IMG/VR virus record: IMGVR_UViG_3300009163_000202
Coordinates: 1-22,563 of that record
Reading direction: 5' to 3' (one strand)
From: a virus
Length of the DNA: 22,563 nt
Of the stretch, positions 7,166 to 20,805 are shown piece after piece. Each line of letters starts with the position of its first letter. Position 1 is the first letter of the stretch. A program made the position numbers and the translations under genes. The notes under the pieces were generated by a model that was not told the DNA's origin, made no database searches, and worked only from the letters and a program-made list of their open reading frames with translations.

Positions 7166-7370
7166 ATCGTTTTAGTTCTGAAATTATAAACTTCAAAAAC
7201 CCAACTCTACATGGTGTACAACTTCTATCTATTTTTTGAGCGTTCTGATTATAAACATCATCTATTATATCCCATAACCCTGTTTAATCTGTTACCACTT
7301 CACCACTTCTTTCAAACAAGTCTATCTGGTCTCTATATGGCTTTACTCTAATATAGCAATTACTATCCAT
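7140..7370 (-). pseudogene. Small Cys-x-x-Cys protein gene broken by an in-frame TAA
   Basis: From an ATG at 7370 (overlapping the glycosyltransferase stop as ATGGATAG) the frame reads 28 codons, then TAA at 7286-7284. It continues open for 47 more codons to TAG at 7140-7142. The second half contains WDIIDDVYNQN and DRSCTPCR. That combination of a W-x-II-x-x-x-Y segment and a CxxC pair looks like the C-terminal half of a small conserved protein of Bacteroidota phages, and no frame change is needed to read across the stop. There is no ATG, GTG or TTG between the TAA and that segment. The simplest reading is a nonsense mutation of a Gln or Lys codon; a sequencing error is the alternative. Other genes here end with TAA, so general recoding is unlikely. 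Confidence 0.6.
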
Positions 7371-8004
7371 TGTGTTCTATTATTTCAATTGTTTGGGCAG
7401 TTCTTATATGGTGTGTTTCATTCCAATCATCGGGTAATACATTTATCCTTCTATCTTCATTTGACTTATCATTTAAGCAATAATGTTTAAACTCTATATC
7501 AATATCTAACATGGCTCCTGCATCAATATATATTTGATTAATCCATCTATCTTGAGCGTGATTTCCACAAAACATGTCAAAAATTTTACATGATTCTAAA
7601 GTTATTATAGGGAACACATCACTATTTTTACCGTTTTCTTTTGGACTTAAACAAACCATTTCATCGGGTTGGTTTGGCAATATCAAATCCCATTCTTTAG
7701 TAAGTATTTGTGCATCATCTGTTGAAAACATAATCCAACTACCTGTAGCTAATTTATACATGTAGTTGGCGTATGTATGCAACGAGTTATATCCTTCCAA
7801 TCTATCTGAAACAATAAACTTAATGTTAATATCTGTTCTAATCTCGTTAATCCTTGAATATGATTCTGTATCATCACAATCGAACTTAACAATAAATTCA
7901 ACATTGTTTTTATCAGATGCTAAATTAACAAATGAATCTATGCAAGATACAAGTCTATCGAATCTATACCTACTTGGTATTAATACTGTTAATATTGGTT
8001 TCAT
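7363..8004 (-). CDS. GT-A type glycosyltransferase-like protein
   Basis: This gene encodes 213 residues. The opening MKPILTVLIPSRYRFDRL is the first beta strand and nucleotide-binding loop of GT-A (family 2-like) enzymes. FDCDD (41-45) and STDDAQI (94-100, the DxD-like metal site) follow at the expected spacing. The late segment with CGNHAQDRWINQ and DDWNETHH may form the acceptor side. It would transfer a sugar from a nucleotide donor in the cytoplasm; the acceptor cannot be deduced. It is the last intact gene of the sugar cassette, followed with an 8-base overlap by the broken CxxC gene. The small size means a minimal catalytic domain without membrane helices. Confidence 0.65.
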   Translation of the reverse strand: MKPILTVLIPSRYRFDRLVSCIDSFVNLASDKNNVEFIVKFDCDDTESYSRINEIRTDINIKFIVSDRLEGYNSLHTYANYMYKLATGSWIMFSTDDAQILTKEWDLILPNQPDEMVCLSPKENGKNSDVFPIITLESCKIFDMFCGNHAQDRWINQIYIDAGAMLDIDIEFKHYCLNDKSNEDRRINVLPDDWNETHHIRTAQTIEIIEHNG

Positions 8005-8039
8005 TGAATTAGTTTTACCTCGTTTTTTCCATTGTAATT

Positions 8040-8561
8040 CTATCCTCCTACTATATATTTCCCGAATGCCTCCCCTTCAAATATTGATACATCAATTGTA
8101 TTACTTAGTGCTGTTGCCCACAAATTAGTACTTTTTATATCAATTCTATATTTAAACAAAGGGAATATATTATTATACCTATAATCACCTTGACCAAATG
8201 GTTCGGTGTCGTGAACAACAAAGATGTCGAAATTATCAACAAGTCTTTTTATATCAATATGCCTTTGCTCTCCCGGTGCGTGGTCAATAAGTATTACTGA
8301 ACCTTTAGGGTTTATTGATTCCCAATTATTATCGGGAACAAATGTAGATTTATGTAACTTTGCCCACTCCTCCCCATTGTCGTAGGTTTCAAATGACCTA
8401 CCCGATTGTTTGCAATATTCACGAAGATAGGAAGTTGAACCCCATCCACTACCAAACTCTACTACATTGCCATCAGTTACGTTTAATGCGCACCATAATA
8501 ATAGTCTATGATTATCATTACTATCTGCTTGTAGGTTCTCTAAAAATTCTGTTTTTGTCAT
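8040..8561 (-). CDS. SAM-dependent methyltransferase-like protein in the sugar cassette
   Basis: This gene encodes 173 residues. VVEFGSGWGSTSYL (33-46) is a class I methyltransferase motif I with the Gly-rich SAM loop. ETYDNGEEW (58-66) supplies the acidic residue after strand 2. VILIDHAPGEQRHID (89-103) and FVVHDTEP (114-121) resemble motifs of the Methyltransf_24-like group often found in sugar biosynthesis clusters. The likely role is O-methylation of a sugar or a small cytoplasmic substrate, but the acceptor is unknown. It lies 35 bases upstream of the next glycosyltransferase-like gene and 11 bases after the previous one, so it belongs to the same operon. It is shorter than most such enzymes but contains the whole visible core. 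Confidence 0.65.
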   Translation of the reverse strand: MTKTEFLENLQADSNDNHRLLLWCALNVTDGNVVEFGSGWGSTSYLREYCKQSGRSFETYDNGEEWAKLHKSTFVPDNNWESINPKGSVILIDHAPGEQRHIDIKRLVDNFDIFVVHDTEPFGQGDYRYNNIFPLFKYRIDIKSTNLWATALSNTIDVSIFEGEAFGKYIVGG

Positions 8562-8572
8562 ATTGTTTTGTT

Positions 8573-9328
8573 TTATAGTTTTCCATGTATTTTTTCATAA
8601 ACATCAATAAACTTTCCTAACTTATCGGGGTGCATTACATTATTGTTTTCGCAGTGTGCATCTACCCAGTTTGGCTGTTTCTGTGTTTCCTCCCAATTAT
8701 ATCTATCTACCCTTCCAAGTGCCAACGTAGCTCCTGCAATATTTATCTGCCCCCTGTTAATCATTGTGAGTTGGTCTTTGAATGGCATTAATCTTTTGGT
8801 TAATAGGTTCCAGTCAAAATTCCACCACTGTTCCCAATCATCGCTGAATGCTAATCCTGTTTCGTTTGCATCTCTTAACATATCCGATACTGTATCGAAG
8901 GTACAGTTTAGATATTGCTTCCAGTTTGCGCCTGTCATTGCTACATATCCCATCGGGAAGTAATTAAACCAAGTTAGGTCGTGTCCGTAAATTGTAACTT
9001 CGTGCGGTGATGGTTTCCAATAGTCTTGCAGTGGTATCAAATCCATGTCGCTTGTCATAATCAGAGCGTCCATTGGCAGGTAGTTCGCTGCATACAAACG
9101 TGAAGCCTGTGCGATTGTTTCATTCCTTAATCCTTCGATTACTGGCAGCTTTACTATGATAGTTTCCTTTCGGTTTACTTGCAATTTATTTACATCAACA
9201 TCGTTTGTTACCATTACACATAAATCCCATCCATAAATCGCCCAAGCCTTTTCTACATAAGGTAGGTAAAATAGATAGTCAGGATTGTTATTACTTGACA
9301 CTACTACATACTTCTTGTATTGTTCCAT
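8573..9328 (-). CDS. Glycosyltransferase-like protein with DMD metal motif
   Basis: This gene encodes 251 residues. After an N-terminal strand (KKYVVVSSNNN) the protein has ASRLYAANYLP (75-85) and ALIMTSDMDLIPL (88-100). The latter is the typical end of a GT-A nucleotide-binding half, with the DMD triad (94-96) as metal and sugar-nucleotide site. The later WEQWWNFDWNLL segment and INRGQINIAGATLALGRVDR may form the acceptor side. No membrane segment is visible. The start lies inside the 3' end of a 56-residue gene (38-base overlap), suggesting coupling. One 60-base line of this gene (9001-9060) has about 45% G+C, well above neighbours such as 11761-11820 (about 18%), so it may have a different origin. 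Confidence 0.65.
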   Translation of the reverse strand: MEQYKKYVVVSSNNNPDYLFYLPYVEKAWAIYGWDLCVMVTNDVDVNKLQVNRKETIIVKLPVIEGLRNETIAQASRLYAANYLPMDALIMTSDMDLIPLQDYWKPSPHEVTIYGHDLTWFNYFPMGYVAMTGANWKQYLNCTFDTVSDMLRDANETGLAFSDDWEQWWNFDWNLLTKRLMPFKDQLTMINRGQINIAGATLALGRVDRYNWEETQKQPNWVDAHCENNNVMHPDKLGKFIDVYEKIHGKL

Positions 9329-9461
9329 TGGTTATAATTATATTTATAGTTTGTTTTGTATCTTTAATAGTCAATAGATGTGATATATCGGTTGAATACT
9401 GCAACTCAATAGGTGTTACTGATACATCTATCCCTTGTATATCTACTACTGTTCCATTCAT
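9291..9461 (-). CDS. Small hypothetical protein, 56 residues
   Basis: The gene starts with an ATG at 9461 placed directly after the TAA of the upstream glycosyltransferase gene (9462-9464), and ends with TAA at 9291-9293, inside the next gene. The protein opens MNGTVVDIQGIDVSV and alternates hydrophobic and polar residues (strand-like), with no signal or membrane helix. The exact TAA-ATG junction and its filling of an otherwise empty gap support a real gene. I recognise no family. A small virion decoration-type or beta-sandwich fragment is only a guess. Confidence 0.45.
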   Translation of the reverse strand: MNGTVVDIQGIDVSVTPIELQYSTDISHLLTIKDTKQTINIIITNGTIQEVCSSVK

Positions 9462-10301
9462 TTAATAAATGTTTTCTTTAATCCAGTAAAAAATATCTTC
9501 AAAAGGTTTTTCTGCTGCCCTTATATCTTCAAACCTATCATAGTATTTATTTAAAAACTTATCCATTGTTGTATTGTAGTAACCACTACTTCCAATGTGT
9601 CCGCAGGTTTCGTTACTTGCTTTCATTTCAATTGGCACATTTGGTAGTTCTAAATCGGGTACCGTATTATGCCATTCAGATAAAAAGGTGTTAGGCATTC
9701 CAAGTAGATAGTGTTGGACAATACTATCGTTACCCTGTTGCGCAAATTTTTGATAAACAAACTGATTTAATAAATCTTGGTCTGTCCCTTTTCTACTATA
9801 GTCAGATACCATATTAACCAGTTCATCCCACGAACCAATCCCTAACCTTTCAGAAAAGTATTTAGGTCTTACTCCTATCATACCTCCCATCAACGGAATA
9901 TTATGGCTAACACTATCAGCAATTGCATGAAGTACCTTACCCTCTCTATGCAGCCAATACTGAACACATTGTGCCTCTTTATATGTTAAAGGGCTATCTA
10001 CATCTCTACATATTACTGCTTCAATATCTTTTTCAAATGCAGGTTTTATTCTCCAAAGCATCGCTTTACATAATGGAGTGTTATCAGGCTCTATTCTTAC
10101 CTGTATGTTTAATTTAGAAAATAGCTCTATAAAGCCATTGTAGGTAGAATGGTCAGTGTATAGTCTTATTGTCCAATCGGGGTAAATTAACCTCTGCAAT
10201 CTAATGTTTACCATTAACCCTCTTAAATAAGATAAGAAGTCAAAACAATTTTCTTGTCTTTCTTTTCCATAACCAAATAATGAATAAGTTATTAATTTCA
10301 T
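9462..10301 (-). CDS. Glycosyltransferase-like protein with DVD metal motif
   Basis: This gene encodes 279 residues, the largest of the GT-A-like members. It starts MKLITYSLFGYGKERQEN, a beginning common in phage and capsule-type sugar transferases. PDWTIRLYTDHST (41-53) is an early strand-loop. AVICRDVDSPLT (95-106) carries the DVD metal motif (100-102). HAIADSVSHNIPLMGGMIGVR (about 125-145) resembles the substrate-binding segment of this group. The likely role is sugar transfer onto a lipid, protein or DNA acceptor in the cytoplasm. The start overlaps the preceding gene's stop by four bases (ATGA). No transmembrane helix is seen. Confidence 0.68.
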   Translation of the reverse strand: MKLITYSLFGYGKERQENCFDFLSYLRGLMVNIRLQRLIYPDWTIRLYTDHSTYNGFIELFSKLNIQVRIEPDNTPLCKAMLWRIKPAFEKDIEAVICRDVDSPLTYKEAQCVQYWLHREGKVLHAIADSVSHNIPLMGGMIGVRPKYFSERLGIGSWDELVNMVSDYSRKGTDQDLLNQFVYQKFAQQGNDSIVQHYLLGMPNTFLSEWHNTVPDLELPNVPIEMKASNETCGHIGSSGYYNTTMDKFLNKYYDRFEDIRAAEKPFEDIFYWIKENIY

Positions 10302-10861
10302 TTTGTTGTTGTATAATGATAGTGATAGATAACTTCGTTTATCTTATATTCTGTTTTTATCAATCCACTATTCTTCACCTGTGTCGCCCAGTCAGTATCT
10401 TCTCCAAAGTTTATCTCAGGGAACTTAAATTGTTTTGCTATGCTTGTTTTTATGCAGTTTAGGTGGTTTGGGTATCGCTCATAAATAATCTGAGAACCTG
10501 TTGCATTTGTTTTATATTTATCATATTTAACAGAATGCTCAAACAACTCAGGATTACAGCCATCCCACGTTATAACACCAATTAATGAGCAACAATCTAC
10601 ATCCTCTTTTATCCCTTCAAATAGTTTTTCAATATAGTTTGCCCCAATACTATCATCATCGTCAATATAGCAGACATACTTACCAACAGCACATCTCATT
10701 AATTCATTTCTTTTAGCACCAATTGATAATTCACCATTATCTATACAACTAATTATTTCAACCTCACTTGTTTTTTGTTTTTCTAACTCTTTTATTAAAG
10801 CGAAATACATTTCAGTTCTCGAATGCAATGATGGGATAAGAATTGATAATTTACAAGTCAT
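10298..10861 (-). CDS. Family 2-type glycosyltransferase
   Basis: This gene encodes 187 residues. MTCKLSILIPSLHSR is the GT2 first strand and loop. GAKRNELMRCAVGKYVCYIDDDDSI (48-72) is the classic run-up to the DxD metal site (DDDD at 67-70), and NFGEDTDWATQVKNSG (151-166) matches the ED acceptor/base motif of this family. All core motifs are present in order, so this is one of the clearest glycosyltransferases in the cassette. It overlaps both neighbours: 11 bases upstream, and four bases (ATGA) downstream. It lacks a C-terminal membrane region, so it is likely soluble. Confidence 0.78.
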   Translation of the reverse strand: MTCKLSILIPSLHSRTEMYFALIKELEKQKTSEVEIISCIDNGELSIGAKRNELMRCAVGKYVCYIDDDDSIGANYIEKLFEGIKEDVDCCSLIGVITWDGCNPELFEHSVKYDKYKTNATGSQIIYERYPNHLNCIKTSIAKQFKFPEINFGEDTDWATQVKNSGLIKTEYKINEVIYHYHYTTTK

Positions 10862-11492
10862 AATTATTTATTTTCCTTTTAAAATATGTTTGTTGGTCTT
10901 CACTATTAAAAGATTCAGTGTAATTATATTGAGAATCAAAATTGGCTCTGCCATATGCAGGATGTAAATGTATAAATAAATTATCATTTATAAATTTATA
11001 TCTATTTAATATTTTAGCTACATCTGTCATTTCATTGTCGCAATATAGTGATTTGTATTCGGGATTATAAATGTAGCCGAACCTTTTATAATATTCCCTC
11101 CCCATTATTGCCATTGTAATAAGGTCTAAACGGTTGCCGTCAGGAAAATGAATACATTGGTCCAAATAGTTTTTATCACAAAAAGAATCTCTAATTATTT
11201 TATCAAAATCTTTTCTAGTAAACATCATGTCATCGCTCATATTTACCAATATATCCCAATCATAATAATAGTTTTGCAAGTCCCTATTAATTGCATCAAC
11301 TTTATTAAGAGATGTCCCTTTTTTTATTGTTGTATTTTTATAAATAGTTAAATAATTACTACTACTATCATCTTTGTCAACACTAACAAGTATATGAAAA
11401 TTGTCATTACTCATATTATTTATAATACTCTCAATCCCTCTATGGAATAATGATGGTCTACTTCTTGTTGCGTATTTAAATAGTATTTTCAT
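10851..11492 (-). CDS. Glycosyltransferase-like protein
   Basis: This gene encodes 213 residues. MKILFKYATRSRPSLFHRGI and HILVSVDKDDSS (33-44) fit the first half of a GT-A fold. DILVNMSDDMMF (80-91) is the metal-site strand with SDD in place of DxD. SLYCDNEMTDVAK is a later acidic motif often seen in this phage group. The gene overlaps its upstream neighbour by 17 bases and its downstream neighbour by 11, so it is embedded in the operon. The DNA is strongly AT-rich. The motif fit is looser than for the GT2 genes on either side, so donor and acceptor are unknown. Confidence 0.6.
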   Translation of the reverse strand: MKILFKYATRSRPSLFHRGIESIINNMSNDNFHILVSVDKDDSSSNYLTIYKNTTIKKGTSLNKVDAINRDLQNYYYDWDILVNMSDDMMFTRKDFDKIIRDSFCDKNYLDQCIHFPDGNRLDLITMAIMGREYYKRFGYIYNPEYKSLYCDNEMTDVAKILNRYKFINDNLFIHLHPAYGRANFDSQYNYTESFNSEDQQTYFKRKINNYDL

Positions 11493-12084
11493 TAAAATAT
11501 TTATTCCAATTTAATTTAACATATTTATTTTTTTCTTCATCTGATATACTTGATTTATGATTTACTGTAGAATAATCATGTGCAAATAAATATTCGCTAG
11601 TTCCTTCAATCATTCTGTATCTATTATTTTCGCCATATATTCTATTTGAAAAATCAGCATGTTCAAATCCGTAAATAGTATATTTTTCATCAAATAAACC
11701 TACTTTTTCTATTGCATTTTTTGTCAAAAACATAAACACTCCACCACAATCGTTATAATATTCTTTACCACTTATTTTTAAAATAAATCTATGTTTTTTT
11801 TTATTTAAAAACAGCACATGTTCTTCTTTTGAATAAACAAAAAATTCAATCCATTTATCTTTAATTGGAAAACAATCATCATCAAAAAGAAATACATATT
11901 CACAATCTTTTAAAGCTATTAAACATTCGTTTTTCCTAAACGCTACACCTCTTCTATCTTCATCTGAATCAACAGCTATATATAATTTCGTGTCATAGCC
12001 TGATGAATGCTTATTAATTTGGCTAACACACTGTTTTAAACAATCAGGGCGGTTAAAAGTTGTTATTCCTATTCCTACCTTCAT
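11476..12084 (-). CDS. Family 2-type glycosyltransferase
   Basis: This gene encodes 202 residues. MKVGIGITTFNRPDCLKQCV is a textbook GT2 opening. LYIAVDSDEDRRG (34-46) gives the uridine-binding Asp, and YVFLFDDDCFPI (63-74) the DDD metal site. GGVFMFLTKNAIEKVGLFDE followed by YGFEHADFSNRI (about 139-150) matches the ED-type catalytic segment. It overlaps the GT4-like gene by four bases upstream and the next glycosyltransferase gene by 17 bases downstream. The region is among the most AT-rich of the window. It is a soluble catalytic domain with no membrane segment; a role in building the same glycan as its neighbours is inferred. Confidence 0.78.
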   Translation of the reverse strand: MKVGIGITTFNRPDCLKQCVSQINKHSSGYDTKLYIAVDSDEDRRGVAFRKNECLIALKDCEYVFLFDDDCFPIKDKWIEFFVYSKEEHVLFLNKKKHRFILKISGKEYYNDCGGVFMFLTKNAIEKVGLFDEKYTIYGFEHADFSNRIYGENNRYRMIEGTSEYLFAHDYSTVNHKSSISDEEKNKYVKLNWNKYFNENTI

Positions 12085-13196
12085 ATTGATTGATAAAATT
12101 CATGCCTGTCTTTATTAACCACATCCATTATATATTTTTCCTTCACTAATTCGTGCAATTTTTCTTTTTGGTCATTTGCTTTATTTGGATTTAAAACCAA
12201 TGACTTCATAGCAACACCCCAACCTTCATTTCTTTTTGATGGATTTATTAACATTGAATTATTCTTTGTGCAATCAATCGAATATGGAGGCACATTACTT
12301 ACTATAACTGATTTTTTAAACCAACCCGCTTCTATTATTTTCAATTGCGATTTATATTGATTGAATCCATTTACATTTAAAGGAATTAATGCTATATCTA
12401 TTTCATTATATAACTTAGCATAATTCCAAACATCGCTACCCCACAACCTTTTATAAGGTTGAGTATCTCCTGCTTCATTCCCTTCTTGTTTGTTTAGTTT
12501 TAGATATTTTAAATATTTATTATCATTTAAATTTTTATAATTATCTGTAAATATTTTTTCAAGAAAATGATATTGGTAATTATCACTATAACCTCCTAAA
12601 CACAACTGAAATTTAGTATTATCTGTTTTCCACAATTCACAAATACCCTCATACATCAGTCTTACATCCTGAATGTGATACAAACCACCTACCCAACCAA
12701 ACCTCATTCTATCTGAATAATAATCTACCTGTTCAAATTGTGGCTCGGTCGTATCAATGGAATTAGGTAGTACAACAACATTTTTATTGATTTCTCTAAT
12801 TTTAGTTGCAAATATTTCGGTTGTTGTTGTTACATAATCGGCATTGCGAAGCCCATCCAACGCTTGTGCTGCGTAATTATGTTTTATATATTCATCTTTT
12901 AATTCATGGTCCTTGTGCAATATCCAATAATCATCAATGTCAATTATTACCTTACACCCTGCACGTTTACACCTATTTATTATTTCAACAGTATTTCCTT
13001 TGTAATCAACTATTCTAAGAAATGTCACTATTGAATAACTTGAAAGTTCCTGCTCTGAAAATGTGGTTATATTGTAAGTTATATCACATCTATATTCATT
13101 CGGATATTCTCTATCTAGGTGCGAATGTGGGATTAATTGTCTATGGTAATTTAACCCTGTATTTTGCTGGTGTGTTACAACTAAAATATTTATCAT
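12081..13196 (-). CDS. GT-B type (family 4-like) glycosyltransferase
   Basis: This gene encodes 371 residues, about the normal length for GT4 enzymes and the only GT-B-like protein here. The N-terminal half has MINILVVTHQQNTGLNYHRQL and, later, CKVIIDIDDYWILHKDH. The second half has RFGWVGGLYHIQDV (strand and loop at the start of the donor-binding domain), IDIALIPLN and KIIEAGWFKKSVIVSNVPPY, where the E of IIEAG is the usual donor-binding glutamate. The reaction is sugar transfer with retention in this family. It is the first gene of the cassette, and its ATG overlaps the stop of the sigma-like gene by four bases (ATGA). Confidence 0.75.
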   Translation of the reverse strand: MINILVVTHQQNTGLNYHRQLIPHSHLDREYPNEYRCDITYNITTFSEQELSSYSIVTFLRIVDYKGNTVEIINRCKRAGCKVIIDIDDYWILHKDHELKDEYIKHNYAAQALDGLRNADYVTTTTEIFATKIREINKNVVVLPNSIDTTEPQFEQVDYYSDRMRFGWVGGLYHIQDVRLMYEGICELWKTDNTKFQLCLGGYSDNYQYHFLEKIFTDNYKNLNDNKYLKYLKLNKQEGNEAGDTQPYKRLWGSDVWNYAKLYNEIDIALIPLNVNGFNQYKSQLKIIEAGWFKKSVIVSNVPPYSIDCTKNNSMLINPSKRNEGWGVAMKSLVLNPNKANDQKEKLHELVKEKYIMDVVNKDRHEFYQSI

Positions 13197-13711
13197 TTAC
13201 ATTTATTTTTTATTTTATTTTGAAAAGACTGTATATGTTTTCTAACTGTTAGATATGGGATTCCTGTAACTCTACTAACCTCTTTATAATTTCCACAATC
13301 AACATAAATTTCAAATAATTTAGCTTGTGCGGGATAGATATTTTTTTTTATACTTTTAGTTATTTCCTTATCAATTTCTGATTCTATTTTTTTAATCTGT
13401 TCTTCATCATTAAAATCATCATCATTAGTGTTTATGTTTTCAGGTAATTCCTCCGTTTTTAGTTTTCCGTATAATTGTTTCTTGAACTCCGACCTATTGC
13501 TGTGTATAGATATATAGATTATTCTAGCAACGTACATCCTCAACCCCCCTTCTTTATGCAATTTTATTAATTTATCATCATTTATTTCAAGCAAATATAA
13601 ACAAACATACTGAAACAAATCTTTATACAAATCACATCCAGCAACAGAATAACAATAATCAATGTATTTTTCATCATTACATATTTCATTCAATATTTCA
13701 TTTTTGTTCAC
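13193..13711 (-). CDS. Sigma factor-like regulator, likely late transcription activator
   Basis: I place the start at a GTG (13711-13709); an upstream TTG at 13726 is the other option, and no in-frame ATG exists here. The product is about 172 residues. The first part (DLYKDLFQYVCLYLLE, then GGLRMYVARIIYISIHSNR) resembles sigma-70 region 2. An acidic linker with NDDDFNDEE follows. The C-terminal KLFEIYVDCGNYKEVSRVTGIP and TVRKHIQSF form a region 4-type helix-turn-helix. Phages of Bacteroidota often carry such sigma-like genes ahead of late operons. It would direct host RNA polymerase to phage promoters or act as a transcription cofactor. It is the first gene of the leftward operon and abuts the divergent control region. 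Confidence 0.68.
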   Translation of the reverse strand: MNKNEILNEICNDEKYIDYCYSVAGCDLYKDLFQYVCLYLLEINDDKLIKLHKEGGLRMYVARIIYISIHSNRSEFKKQLYGKLKTEELPENINTNDDDFNDEEQIKKIESEIDKEITKSIKKNIYPAQAKLFEIYVDCGNYKEVSRVTGIPYLTVRKHIQSFQNKIKNKCK

Positions 13712-13741
13712 TTTACAAAAGTGCAAAATTTATATGATTCA

Positions 13742-15055: not shown

Positions 15056-15331
15056 ATGAAAAGAATAATTAAAAAAATCGAAACAAAAGAAATTGAAACA
15101 GAAGTAGAAGTTACTCTACCGTATTATGCAACTTGGGCGAATAGTTTTTTTTATAAAATAGTTGGTGAAAATAGTACGGATGCTATTCGTGTATCAGATG
15201 ACACTATCACTCAAGTAAATCATGATGTTGTTTTCGATAGCAGTAACACACCCTGCACAGCTAAAGAATACAACGATGCCTTTGTAAATACAATGAAGCA
15301 TTTAAACGACATAAATAATATTGCGGTTTAG
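15056..15331 (+). CDS. Hypothetical protein, 91 residues
   Basis: The protein starts MKRIIKKIETKEIETEVEV, a strongly charged strand-like segment, followed by TLPYYATWANSFFYKIVG and a polar middle, and a helix EYNDAFVNTMKHLNDIN near the end. The ATG is preceded by an A-rich stretch typical of starts in this genome. No family is recognised. It is followed by a G-tract region at 15349-15413. Confidence 0.6.
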   Translation: MKRIIKKIETKEIETEVEVTLPYYATWANSFFYKIVGENSTDAIRVSDDTITQVNHDVVFDSSNTPCTAKEYNDAFVNTMKHLNDINNIAV

Positions 15332-15348
15332 TAATTGTTCCGCAAAAT

Positions 15349-15413
15349 AAAGGGGGGGGGCATTGTAATTAGTGCGAGGGGGTGTTGTTTCCTCCTAGTT
15401 ATCCCCCTTTTTT
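15349..15413 (+). terminator. G-tract hairpin region, candidate terminator or attenuator
   Basis: The gap between two genes holds a run of nine G (15352-15360), a second GGGGG (15378-15382), then CCCCC (15403-15407) followed by six T (15408-15413). AGGGGG at 15377 can pair with CCCCCT; AAAGGGGG at 15349 can pair with CCCCCTTT instead. The T run after the C tract is terminator-like. The two alternative stems are mutually exclusive, which could allow switching. The rest of the gap to 15464 shows only a short GGG/CCC possibility. Confidence 0.4.
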
Positions 15414-15464
15414 AAAATATAACGCAATGGGCTAAGCGAATAGACCCCGATAAATAAATAAATA

Positions 15465-17397: not shown

Positions 17398-17582
17398 TGC
17401 CACTAACAGAAGAACAACTATTCAGACCGCTGGACCCGTTATATAATCCATTCAGCGATAGATATGCTACAGACCCAATAGATGAAGATGTGATTTTTAA
17501 AAAGGAGTTGAATTATGATATTTATCTAGTTAAAAGAAAAAAAGAAAATAGAAGAAGAAATAAATTAAAAATGAAATTATGA
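17397..17582 (+). CDS. Hypothetical protein, 61 residues
   Basis: The protein starts MPLTEEQLFRPLDPLYNPF and ends in a very basic tail (KRKKENRRRNKLKMKL). The acidic-aromatic front and basic back suggest a small adaptor or nucleic acid-binding protein, but no family is recognised. It is coupled on both sides: TAATG at the start and ATGA with the DnaA-like gene at the end. Confidence 0.55.
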   Translation: MPLTEEQLFRPLDPLYNPFSDRYATDPIDEDVIFKKELNYDIYLVKRKKENRRRNKLKMKL

Positions 17583-17959
17583 AACACACACCATTTATAA
17601 GAATAGCTACAGTTCAACGTGTACCAGTTAGTCAAGTTATTTCGGAATTTTGTATTTTAACGCAAATGCAATATTCAGATTTAATTCGCAAAACTCGAAA
17701 AAAAAAAATTGTGAAATATCGACAGATGATTATTCACTATTTACAAGCTAATTCATCGGTTGTTGGTGATAGGTATTGGTCACATAATCAAACGGAATTA
17801 GGGTTGTTTTTTGGGGGATTGGACCATTCAACAATAAGTTATTCAGTTAAAATCGTTAGTGATTTAAGATATAGCTACAAGGGATTTAACGATGAATATC
17901 AGGCAATCGAAACTATTTTAAATAAAATAATAGATGAAAAGGAAACGAATAAAAACTAA
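17579..17959 (+). CDS. Stand-alone DnaA domain IV-like DNA-binding protein
   Basis: This gene encodes 126 residues. SDLIRKTRKKKIVKYRQMII (33-52), then TELGLFFGGLDHSTISYSVK (72-91), are the helices and signature loop of the DnaA C-terminal domain that reads DnaA boxes; the GG-x-DHSTI stretch at 79-86 is diagnostic. There is no AAA+ ATPase part, so the protein can bind DNA but not by itself melt an origin. It sits next to the replication initiator-like gene and directly before a structured non-coding stretch. A role in marking a phage origin, or in interfering with host DnaA, is an inference. Confidence 0.75.
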   Translation: MKHTPFIRIATVQRVPVSQVISEFCILTQMQYSDLIRKTRKKKIVKYRQMIIHYLQANSSVVGDRYWSHNQTELGLFFGGLDHSTISYSVKIVSDLRYSYKGFNDEYQAIETILNKIIDEKETNKN

Positions 17960-17964
17960 GTCAG

Positions 17965-17978
17965 TACCATTGATGGTA
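17965..17978. repeat. 14-base palindrome after the DnaA-like gene
   Basis: TACCATTGATGGTA has perfect 6-base arms around TG. It is the first element in the 235-base non-coding stretch 17960-18194 and starts six bases after the stop of the DnaA-like gene, so it may be a protein-binding site. No classical DnaA box (TTATnCACA) was seen in this stretch. Confidence 0.35.
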
Positions 17979-18068
17979 GCTTCGAACCAAGACCGAAAAA
18001 ATAATTGTAATAAAAAATTTCTCTATGTAAATAATTTGTTGTACTTTTACAGCCGAATTATTAATGTA

Positions 18069-18116
18069 ATGATTCATAAAGCCAAACGACCAATGAATAA
18101 GAAATACACAAAATAA
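18069..18116 (+). CDS. Possible leader peptide, 15 residues
   Basis: An ATG at 18069 opens a 15-codon frame (MIHKAKRPMNKKYTK) that ends with TAA at 18114. The left arm of a 12-base inverted repeat (18082-18093) lies inside it. This is the layout of a leader peptide whose translation could alter folding of the following RNA. A TACTTTTAC sequence just upstream is a one-base-off promoter element, without a clear -33 partner. It could be chance. Confidence 0.25.
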   Translation: MIHKAKRPMNKKYTK

Positions 18117-18180
18117 ACATACTGCACCGAAACAAATTGCTTTCCTCACTTGGTCGTTTGGTAGCGTTTGTGGAGGTGCA
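18082..18180 (+). repeat. Two interleaved inverted repeats (pseudoknot-like), followed by T-run
   Basis: CCAAACGACCAA at 18082-18093 is the perfect inverted repeat of TTGGTCGTTTGG at 18150-18161. TGCACC at 18123-18128 pairs with GGTGCA at 18175-18180. The two pairs are interleaved, as in an H-type pseudoknot, and the second is followed after two bases by a run of seven T (18183-18189) close to the ATG at 18195. CGTTTG also repeats at a 10-base interval (18155 and 18165). The stretch 17960-18194 otherwise holds no gene I can support. Candidate roles are attenuator, non-coding RNA or replication origin. Confidence 0.5.
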
Positions 18181-18194
18181 TCTTTTTTTATATT

Positions 18195-18887
18195 ATGGCG
18201 AAAGACCCTGCATTTTTGTTTTATACTGGAGATTTTCAGGTAGGGACACAGTTCTTTACTAACGAACAGGTTGGTATATACTTGCGATTATTAATGGCTC
18301 AACATCAACACGGACACTTATGTGAAGATGAAGTGATTTTCATATGTGGAAAATTAGACCCTAAAATAATGAGTAAATTTCTACAAGATGAAGACGGAAA
18401 ATATTACAATTTTAGACTTGAATCGGAGGTAAATAAGAGAAAAAGCTATTCAGAGAGCAGGAGTAATAATAAGGCTGGTAAAGGAAAAGAACATAAGAAA
18501 AAGACACGAAAATCATATGTAAAACATATGGAAGATGAAAATAAAGATAAAGATGTAATTAAAATAAAAGAAAATGACATTGAAAAATTTGAAAAATTCA
18601 GAAAGAAATATGGTGGTACCAAAAATGGCACCGAGACAGAGTTCAAAAACTTTCAGCGACATAAAGATTGGGAGGCAATTTTACCTACTCTCGAAATTGC
18701 AGTTGATAATCAAACGTTAGAACGAAAACAGAAAACAGAACGAAAGGAGTTTGTGCCCGAATGGAAGAATTTACAAACATGGATTAATCAGAGGTGTTGG
18801 GAGCAAGAGGTTAAGTTGGTTGAAGAAAAACCGAAAGAAGAATACAAGAAACCGAATTACAGAGAAATTTTTGGTACTAATCGGTAA
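18195..18887 (+). CDS. Phage replication initiator / helicase loader-like protein
   Basis: I place the start at 18195 because the family motif begins there: MAKDPAFLFYTGDFQVGT, then FFTNEQVGIYLRLLMAQHQHG and EDEVIFICGKL. This winged-helix opening is like DUF1376/YdaU or Lin1244-type replisome organisers. The middle is a Lys-rich linker. The C-terminus has FEKFRKKYGGTKNGTETEFK, then KDWEAILPTLEIAV and a WK-x-LQTWINQRCWE end, as in phage loader proteins. The 230-residue protein would bind the origin and recruit the helicase encoded downstream. Its 5' side is the inverted-repeat element. Confidence 0.68.
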   Translation: MAKDPAFLFYTGDFQVGTQFFTNEQVGIYLRLLMAQHQHGHLCEDEVIFICGKLDPKIMSKFLQDEDGKYYNFRLESEVNKRKSYSESRSNNKAGKGKEHKKKTRKSYVKHMEDENKDKDVIKIKENDIEKFEKFRKKYGGTKNGTETEFKNFQRHKDWEAILPTLEIAVDNQTLERKQKTERKEFVPEWKNLQTWINQRCWEQEVKLVEEKPKEEYKKPNYREIFGTNR

Positions 18888-18940
18888 TGAAAGGGATACA
18901 TCAAAAGTGGTATGATTTGATAATGAAAAAGATTTTATGA
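18887..18940 (+). CDS. Possible coupling mini-ORF, 17 residues
   Basis: ATG at 18887 overlaps the loader stop by one base, and its TGA (18938-18940) overlaps the helicase ATG (18937) as ATGA. The peptide reads MKGIHQKWYDLIMKKIL. The exact fit at both junctions suggests translational coupling of the flanking genes; the peptide itself may have no function. Confidence 0.3.
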   Translation: MKGIHQKWYDLIMKKIL

Positions 18941-20805
18941 TTACGGTATTCAATAATTTTGCAAACACAACAAAGCCAAAGTATTTTGAAATAGATACCG
19001 TACTTGATAGTATTCGTAATTGCAATGTTCAAAAACAGGTAAATGCAATCAGGGAGGAAAAGGATGAAAAAAAGAAAAAGGAACTAAAAAAAATGTTGCC
19101 TTGTATTTTATTTTCAGGAAAGTTCACCACAAGAGCAGATAAGGCAATTACCGAACATTCAGGATTTGTTGTTTTGGATTGGGATAAAATAACAGAGTTA
19201 GAAAAAAAGAAAAAGGAAATTTCAGAATACCCATTTGTTTATACTTGCTTTGTTTCTCCAAGTGGCGATGGAATAAAGGCAGTTGTTAGAATACCTGCCG
19301 ACATAAAAAAACACAGAGGTTATTACAAGGGGTTAATTAAACTGTTCCCTGAACTTGATACCACAAGCCAAAACGAAAGCAGGATATGTTATGCGAGTTG
19401 CGACAAAGATATTTACATAAATAAAATTGCAACGGAGTTTACTGAATACATTGAAGTTTTAGATGCTAAGGTTAATAATTCGGTTGTTGCTAAAGAAGCA
19501 ATACACAATGATTACGCAAGGGCGCAAAGGGCTTGTAAAATTATTAGAGATAGTATTGATGGAGAGAAACACATTGCGCTACTAAAAGCGTCAAAGTTGA
19601 TGGGGGGGTACATTTCGGGAGGTTTGATAATGGAGGACGAAGCAGTACGGCTACTTGAAAATGAAATACAATTAAAAAATATTGATAACTTTGACGATGC
19701 AAAAGTTACAATAAAAAAGGGAATTGAGTACGGTAAATCAAATCCAATAATAGAGGAAACAACTCTTGTTTACCAAGTAAGTAAAGAAATACACCAACCA
19801 AAAGTAGAAGTTGAAACGGCTGAATTTTTAGCCAATCAAAAGGATATTGATGCTTACTTAAAGTTGTGGAGAGAGGATAAGTTTCAGTTGGGATTAACAA
19901 CAGGGATGCCAAGTTTTGATGAATATTTTGTTTATAAAAGAGGAAATTTTAATGTTGTTAATGGTTTTGATAACGTTGGTAAATCAACAGCATTATGGTA
20001 TATTTGCTTGTTGTCCGAAATATTGCACGGTTGGAAGTGGATAATTTATAGCAATGAAAATAAAGCTGGTACGGTTGTAAAGAAAATGATTGAGTTTTAT
20101 TGGGGAAAGAATATAAAATATCTTTCTGAAACGCAATACCAACAGGCTTATAAGTTTGTTATGAAACACAATAAGTTTATTAGTAATGATTTTTTATTTA
20201 CATACAAACATCTACTTAAAATATCTGATACGATTTTACAGGAGGAAAAGTTTGATGGTATGTTGGTTGACCCTTATAATTCTTTAAGTTTTGATTATTC
20301 AAAGTTGGGTAAAATAAGTACACATGAGTTCCATTATGAGGCAGCGAGTGAGATGCAGAAGTACACAAAGAAAAACGATTTTTGCATTTACCTTAATTGC
20401 CACGTTATTTCAAGTGCGCTAAGATTAGATTTACCACCCAAGAAAGCAGATACAGAGGGCGGTGGGAAGTTTAGTAACAAGGCTGATGATTTTATGACGT
20501 TTCATAGGGACTTGACCGCACCTGACGATGGATGGATGGAAATGCAGATATTTGTACGAAAAATAAAAGAACTTGAAACAGGAGGTGGTTATACAGAGAA
20601 AGATAAACCATATATTTTGAAGTTAAATAAAAACACTTGTGGTTATTCCGATGATAAAGGTTTCGACCCTATTGCAAATTACTGGTCCCAACACGGTCAA
20701 CAACTACCCTTATTACCTGAAACCAAAAGCGCGATAACACCAAACAACGAATTTAATACCGAACATCGAGTAGGTTCATCAAAAGAAAAAAGCCTTACGA
20801 AATAA
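18937..20805 (+). CDS. Primase-helicase: BT4734/VirE-like N-domain fused to RecA-like helicase
   Basis: This gene encodes 622 residues. Residues about 55-165 (CILFSGKFTTRADKAIT, VVLDWDKI, VYTCFVSPSGDGIKAVVRIP, then TTSQNESRICYAS) match the BT4734-like/VirE N-terminal domain related to primase-polymerases. A helical linker follows. The RecA-like helicase half has Walker A GFDNVGKST at 343-351, Walker B FDGMLVDPYNSL from 439 (Asp445), and LNCHVIS as a later motif. It would prime and unwind phage DNA at the replication fork. It lies between the loader and a nuclease gene and is probably co-translated with the loader through the mini-ORF. Its Lys- and Gly-rich C-terminus is typical. Catalytic primase residues were not checked individually. 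Confidence 0.78.
   Translation: MITVFNNFANTTKPKYFEIDTVLDSIRNCNVQKQVNAIREEKDEKKKKELKKMLPCILFSGKFTTRADKAITEHSGFVVLDWDKITELEKKKKEISEYPFVYTCFVSPSGDGIKAVVRIPADIKKHRGYYKGLIKLFPELDTTSQNESRICYASCDKDIYINKIATEFTEYIEVLDAKVNNSVVAKEAIHNDYARAQRACKIIRDSIDGEKHIALLKASKLMGGYISGGLIMEDEAVRLLENEIQLKNIDNFDDAKVTIKKGIEYGKSNPIIEETTLVYQVSKEIHQPKVEVETAEFLANQKDIDAYLKLWREDKFQLGLTTGMPSFDEYFVYKRGNFNVVNGFDNVGKSTALWYICLLSEILHGWKWIIYSNENKAGTVVKKMIEFYWGKNIKYLSETQYQQAYKFVMKHNKFISNDFLFTYKHLLKISDTILQEEKFDGMLVDPYNSLSFDYSKLGKISTHEFHYEAASEMQKYTKKNDFCIYLNCHVISSALRLDLPPKKADTEGGGKFSNKADDFMTFHRDLTAPDDGWMEMQIFVRKIKELETGGGYTEKDKPYILKLNKNTCGYSDDKGFDPIANYWSQHGQQLPLLPETKSAITPNNEFNTEHRVGSSKEKSLTK

Follow-up and report, generated by a model that had tools for sequence, protein, structure and literature searches.

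Interleaved pairings in a predicted attenuator leader RNA ahead of the replication genes of Bacteroidota phages

Results

The window analysed here (22,563 nucleotides in full) is a virus record of 22.6 kb whose proteins match those of Bacteroidota phages. Its rightward operon contains a 235-nt gap (17960-18194), lying between the gene for a DnaA-domain-IV protein and those for a DUF1376-like replisome organiser and a BT4734-like primase (Table 1); relatives annotated as DNA primase/helicase suggest that the C-terminal part of the primase protein is helicase-like. The preliminary description held that such a gap would be notable if conserved, and it is the widest of the operon, the remaining gaps ranging from -4 to 188 nt.

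Elsewhere in the window, the intergenic stretch at 15331-15464, 5' of an SSB-like gene, can form a strong hairpin from a G-run and a C-run (AAAGGGGGG at 15349, TCCCCCTTT at 15410) with Ts behind it, likely a second terminator or attenuator, here without a promoter box. On the minus strand, 13193-13726 encodes a small protein whose C-terminal helix-turn-helix resembles that of a sigma factor (weak match to Pfam DUF2089-HTH), possibly a phage sigma factor, and adjoins the point at which transcription diverges and GC skew switches. A leftward run of ORFs (7363-13196, minus strand) resembles, judged by eye only, glycosyltransferases or sugar-modifying enzymes amid structural genes, which is unusual for a small phage.

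Table 1. Leader features and flanking genes of the replication operon in the window.
Feature	Positions	Strand	Basis
Upstream gene, DnaA domain IV (Bac_DnaA_C) protein	17579..17959	+	Pfam
Candidate Bacteroidota-type promoter: TTTG (18035-18038), 20 nt spacer, TATTAATG (18059-18066)	18035..18066	+	Sequence
5' arm of hairpin P1, ATTCAT, pairing with ATGAAT (18093-18098)	18072..18077	+	Sequence; potential 6-bp P1
Arm A, GCCAAACGACCAA, complement of A' (18150-18162)	18081..18093	+	Sequence
Leader ORF, MNKKYTK-stop (stop 18114-18116), beginning at the final base of arm A	18093..18116	+	Sequence
Arm B, 5' side of terminator hairpin: TGCACC (18123-18128), internal loop, ACAAA (18132-18136)	18123..18136	+	Sequence
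Arm A', TTGGTCGTTTGGT, inside the B/B' hairpin loop	18150..18162	+	Sequence
Arm B', 3' side of terminator hairpin: TTTGT (18167-18171), GGTGCA (18175-18180)	18167..18180	+	Sequence
T7 run, predicted intrinsic termination site, 5 nt 5' of the gene ATG (18195)	18183..18189	+	Sequence
First gene 3' of the leader, DUF1376-like replisome organiser/loader	18195..18887	+	Pfam DUF1376, E=2.3e-5, below curated cut-off; relatives
BT4734-like primase domain protein, same operon	18937..20805	+	Pfam PF08800, E=1.7e-18

A sequence check found every coordinate stated in the preliminary description, and the place of the T-run, to be exact. The perfect 12-base pairing (CCAAACGACCAA 18082-18093 with TTGGTCGTTTGG 18150-18161) is extended by one G-U pair (18081/18162) to give arms A and A', and is interleaved with the TGCACC/GGTGCA repeat of arms B and B'. 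The potential P1 loop (18078-18092) contains most of arm A. The B stem is short, comprising 6 bp, a 3x3 internal loop and 5 bp (ACAAA/TTTGT), and with the T7 run it places a GC-containing hairpin and a U-run between promoter and first gene, as expected of an attenuator built on an intrinsic terminator and as found in most relatives. A simple terminator scan allowing loops of up to 8 nt detected none, as would be the case for a hairpin whose loop is long. None of 2000 dinucleotide shuffles of the gap reached the window's combined interleaved score of -37.2 (best -33.5). A 12-nt perfect repeat stands out less, 2 of 150 shuffles having one; it is therefore the interleaved pair with its T-run, and not the long repeat by itself, that is unusual.

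The 15-codon leader frame described previously does exist from the ATG at 18069, but the in-frame ATG at 18093 is the more likely start and would yield an ORF of 7 codons ending 78 nt 5' of the first gene. At 17965-17978, where a 14-base palindrome had been reported, the inverted repeat amounts only to a 6+2+6 hairpin (TACCAT-TG-ATGGTA) without a T-run; no counterpart was noticed in relatives, and it looks incidental.

The arrangement recurs in other phages. The nearest relative found (L022), whose primase is 59-60% identical to that of the window, has a leader of unrelated sequence in the same order: a 9-bp A pairing (CAACCGTAG/CTACGGTTG), a 19-bp B stem with A' in its loop, a T-run and the gene. 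Common to relatives is the succession of a TAnnTTTG promoter, A within 0-25 nt, B, A' in the B loop, B' and a T-run, and at most curated sites the first gene starts 7-45 nt 3' of B'. TAnnTTTG is the sigma-A -7 consensus of Flavobacterium (PMC9723704); relatives carry TATATTTG/TATCTTTG at the equivalent place, and the TATTAATG box of the window is a weak match, fitting at 6 of 8 positions with both free ones counted. The spacing in the window (29 nt from A to B, a B span of 58 nt) fits that of relatives.

Scans used a descriptor anchored on TAnnTTTG, with A within 30 nt, a B hairpin plus T-run and A' in the B loop, and dinucleotide shuffles as background. Across all loci it returned 10 sites at a combined energy of <= -34 against 0 in shuffles, and 24 at <= -28 against 3.2; with the same descriptor, later-added loci gave 6 sites against 0.5, and in entire phage genomes there were 9 at <= -30 where shuffles had 0.25, some rows of this last set being re-finds or duplicates. 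About 26 curated metagenomic phage sites bear the leader architecture, picked partly by eye (position before a gene, strand) and with a few chance matches expected among them; the listed sites L005 and L087 and the reverse-strand matches in L105 and L107 are probably chance. Cultured carriers are the elemo phages (64 records) and Olleya phage Harreka_1 (one leader), while six cultured phage loci (229 kb) held no convincing copy. Maribacter phage Panino (L103, 11758-11853) has a weak look-alike without a TAnnTTTG box, with A AGTGCTTA/TAAGCGTT and B AAACCCTAT/...TAGGGTTTT, two genes 5' of the primase. A DNA search of phage records using the window gave no match, the DnaA-domain protein as search bait retrieved no relatives, and neither alignment A1 against genome contigs nor A3 against viral contigs provided new useful loci.

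The genes directly behind the leaders serve replication, replisome organisers among them, or in many cases encode endonucleases of the HNH, NUMOD4-HNH or GIY-YIG type. Homing-type endonucleases (HNH, NUMOD4, GIY-YIG/MUG113) are repeatedly the first gene behind the leader (L022, L120, L035, L144, L200, L124, L199 and L280), as if the leader-gene junction were an endonuclease landing site or the leader travelled with endonucleases; a link to homing endonucleases only was ruled out, as organiser genes follow many of the copies. Two or three leaders, differing in their A/A' pairs, are present in some phages. The longest A helix seen, at 17 bp (GTTCAAACTTTCATCGT), lies at 9603 on the minus strand of L292, 5' of a 208-aa gene, in a 78-kb phage with two more candidate leaders. 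A tyrosine integrase match is absent from 18 of 20 leader-bearing records, several of these 58-78 kb, although fragments can miss genes; most of these phages are therefore probably virulent. Of 395 genomes sampled from a single Bacteroidota class, the organiser domain was present in 1, the centre genome itself.

Leader copies take two forms. In the predicted kissing-loop form (L144, L124, L119, L200, L127, L142, L029, elemoF and elemoA, with the P1 arrangement as in the window), a hairpin at the 5' end has A in its loop and the terminator hairpin has A' in its own, such that the A loop could kiss the terminator loop. A scan demanding a separate 5' hairpin P1 brought no clear gain over shuffles, and P1 is therefore claimed for orthologous sets only and considered possible in the window. 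In the leader-ORF form (L006, L008, L011, L042, L051, L052, L120, L121 and L128), an ATG stands at or directly 3' of A and the frame is open through B, A' and B', up to or through the T-run. An ATG adjoins A in 12 of 26 sites (3.8 expected), and the frame is open through the terminator in 9 of the 12 ATG-bearing sites (2.7 expected), as against 1/24 for other frames. The ORF stops near the start of the first gene, overlapping or adjoining it in L042 and L006 (both ATGA), L052, L011 and L051. Short leader ORFs occur in the window (7 codons) and in L015 (12 codons), and end right before arm B or close enough for a ribosome to reach it. About half of the copies have no leader ORF, so a role for the ribosome is not universal. 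No codon run is common to the translated leader ORFs, such as an amino-acid-responsive leader peptide would carry. A type I toxin was rejected as a candidate, the leader peptides not being conserved and many copies having no ORF.

Covariation in related phages, proposed in the preliminary description as the check for an RNA, was found in P1 and A, both of which have changed on both sides (alignment A7). In four orthologous leaders (L144, L124, L119 and L200), the 11 pairs of P1 and A are 100% paired and 5 have changed on both sides; these counts leave out B (indel) and come from the 4-sequence A7 only, as a 10-sequence MAFFT alignment (A6) misaligned the arms. The covariation score of A7 was 0.545 against 0.161 in shuffles, 0 of 500 reaching 0.545; 0 of 500 was the figure for four of the five measures. 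This covariation belongs to the relatives and not to the window's own lineage, whose nearest relative has an unrelated leader sequence.

The most telling case, and one that answers the check proposed at the outset, is the matched replacement seen in the cultured Flavobacterium phages elemoE/F and elemoA-D, which infect the same strain, Flavobacterium sp. BAL314. The 45-nt promoter regions of elemoF and elemoA are identical, yet P1, A and B all differ, each matching its own partner. Cognate A duplexes reach -11.3 and -10.1 kcal/mol against -3.9 and -4.9 when crossed, and cognate B duplexes -12.1 and -9.3 kcal/mol against -2.4 and -6.3. The fetched parts of the two genomes contain one leader each, 5' of the replication operon. 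The additional A:A' pairing is thus one kept by compensatory change and predicted to reach into the terminator loop, and the pattern indicates that pairings, not sequences, are under selection in relatives. Because relatives rewrite the sequence yet keep every pairing, the leader is very probably a real on/off switch for the replication genes.

Discussion

The recurrence of the layout behind Bacteroidota promoters, the compensatory stem changes and the ORF that abuts A in many copies appear to fit two functions suggested at the outset, a leader-controlled attenuator and a small structured RNA. We favour, with moderate confidence, the reading that the gap encodes a structured 5' leader RNA of ~110-120 nt which attenuates, in cis, transcription of the replication operon, and for which we infer the direction of control and the trigger. 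For the leader copies in general, a cis-acting attenuator of early or replication operons would likewise be the best reading.

The sequence supports a predicted transcription start just 5' of arm A, and it places the complement of A in the loop (A') of a hairpin that resembles an intrinsic terminator (B/B' and U-run) and stands directly 5' of the first gene. RNA polymerase would then either halt at the U-run, freeing a short leader RNA, or read on into the operon, the choice being set by A:A' pairing and by the presence of a ribosome on the leader. In leader-ORF copies, where A abuts the ORF start, A:A' pairing would bar ribosome entry; a translating ribosome would run through B and B', prevent the terminator and pass to the first gene, whose start would receive it by overlapping or adjoining the leader-ORF stop. 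In the window, a ribosome at the stop of the 7-codon ORF would achieve the same by covering arm B. In kissing-loop copies without an ORF, the switch itself would be the contact between the loop of the 5' hairpin and that of the terminator. Sterically, A:A' and B:B' seem able to coexist, so that the sequence does not prescribe the direction of control; we infer that B/B' terminates transcription, that A:A' alters the outcome and that a leader ORF occupied by ribosomes promotes read-through.

Because the A/A' pairs are so address-like, the main rival is that the terminated leader is a trans-acting regulatory RNA in the style of P4 CI, P1 c4 or IsrK. A' of a finished leader would pair with A of a nascent one and set termination or leader-ORF translation, resulting in self-specific negative feedback or exclusion of related phages. 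The pairs are orthogonal, cognate pairing being best at 21 of 26 sites; copies within one phage carry different pairs; and in elemoE/F and elemoA-D, phages of one host, diverged matched pairs follow an unchanged promoter. Precedents exist in P4, whose replication genes are controlled by an RNA causing premature termination, and in IsrK, whose target in trans is a leader ORF with an AUGA overlap to the gene that follows (PMC4825925). Nevertheless, A and A' lie in one RNA, which favours cis pairing, and the missing integrase matches together with the single organiser-domain genome make a role in lysogenic immunity unlikely for most of these phages; overall we regard action in trans as unlikely. 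Control of translation only, in which A:A' would be a 5'-UTR lock hiding the leader or first-gene start and B/B' a transcript-end or stability hairpin without regulated read-through, is less probable still: it would suit the abutment of A on the leader-ORF ATG and the mainly translational regulation of IsrK/orf45 (PMC4825925), but not the copies, about half, devoid of a leader ORF, nor the T-run that follows B' directly in nearly all copies, an intrinsic-terminator signature between promoter and gene. More broadly, and tentatively, these leaders may form a hitherto undescribed phage RNA family in which the nascent 5' end kisses its own terminator loop, a private self-addressed switch for each operon; phages of the same host would diversify the address and keep the architecture, and the terminated leader might in addition regulate early transcription in trans in a phage-specific manner.

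A replication origin, as also suggested initially, would make the repeats DNA sites for the DnaA-like or organiser protein, and the position between the genes for these two proteins speaks for it. However, GC skew, named as the check for an origin, switches at ~13-14 kb, where transcription diverges, and not at 18 kb; the arms of different phages have no sequence consensus, which a protein-binding site would need; copies precede HNH/GIY-YIG and other genes, with several per genome in some phages; and the arms keep an order and a spacing set relative to promoter and T-run. With no repeated consensus and the skew switch elsewhere, an origin of iterons or DnaA sites was rejected, and we consider this explanation very improbable. 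We give equally little credence to chance repeats beside an ordinary terminator of the upstream operon. Upstream operons do end in terminators, and inverted repeats are abundant in AT-rich phage DNA (14 pairs within 600 nt), the palindrome at 17965 being of this kind; against this stand the window score that no shuffle matches, the excess over shuffles in relatives, the matched replacement of elemoF and elemoA arms, and the promoter that relatives have 5' of the terminator with no gene in between.

The proposed cis attenuator sits at the entry to the replication module, and transcriptional control of Bacteroidota phages is little known. The leader is unannotated in cultured phages and absent from Rfam; that it is found by pairing rather than by sequence may explain its having been missed. 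It offers a well-delimited RNA part (A, A', B, B') that can be swapped and is testable in Flavobacterium phages, for which elemoE/F and elemoA-D provide a natural experiment in one host, elemoF and elemoA having different self-matched leaders behind the same promoter region.

The literature searched, with poor coverage of subscription papers, contained no description of this architecture, and Rfam covariance-model searches found neither c4 (RF01695) nor any other family at the leaders, and only tRNAs elsewhere in the loci. In P1/P7, the c4 antisense RNA (RF01695) pairs at the start of a short ORF (icd) overlapping the next gene; the present leaders differ in having no match to the c4 model. 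Ribosome-dependent attenuators of the trp/pyrBI type and vmlR likewise combine a leader ORF, alternative pairings and an intrinsic terminator before the first gene, but the present leaders show no regulatory codon run, their peptides are not conserved, and the pairing that sets them apart runs from the 5' end to the loop of the terminator. The repY/repZ system of ColIb-P9 also places a replication gene behind a leader peptide and a long-range loop pairing (pseudoknot); its control is translational, through a counter-transcribed RNA and with no terminator in the pseudoknot, whereas a terminator is predicted in the present leader.

The Gifsy-1 IsrK/orf45/anrP locus comprises a phage leader with its own terminator and a read-through mRNA, a leader ORF of variable peptide sequence (orf45) whose stop overlaps the next start (AUGA) and which is translationally coupled to the next gene, and a long-range pairing of the ORF start region with downstream sequence (PMC4825925). 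The likeness would extend to the phage leader with its terminator and read-through, to the varying leader peptide and, in copies with an ORF, to the ORF/start overlap, the long-range pairing at the ORF start and coupling to the next gene; an ORF overlapping the next start with its start region paired is found in L042, L006 and L052, but not in kissing-loop copies. In IsrK, however, the terminator precedes the ORF, whereas in the present leaders A' and the terminator come within or behind it; there is no sequence relation, the hosts are others, termination is here the predicted control point, and about half of the copies do without an ORF. In satellite phage P4, RNA-RNA pairing in an untranslated leader (CI RNA, seqA-seqC) leads to premature termination before the replication genes (PMC4825925). 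P4 thus resembles the present leaders in pairing of the leader RNA and, as predicted here, in termination ahead of replication genes, and differs in its processed trans RNA and its lysogeny, since here the complement and terminator lie in one leader and most of the phages have no integrase match. IsrK/orf45 and P4 CI RNA are the nearest functional relatives; in kind, the leader would belong with attenuator leaders, while in architecture it appears to be new.
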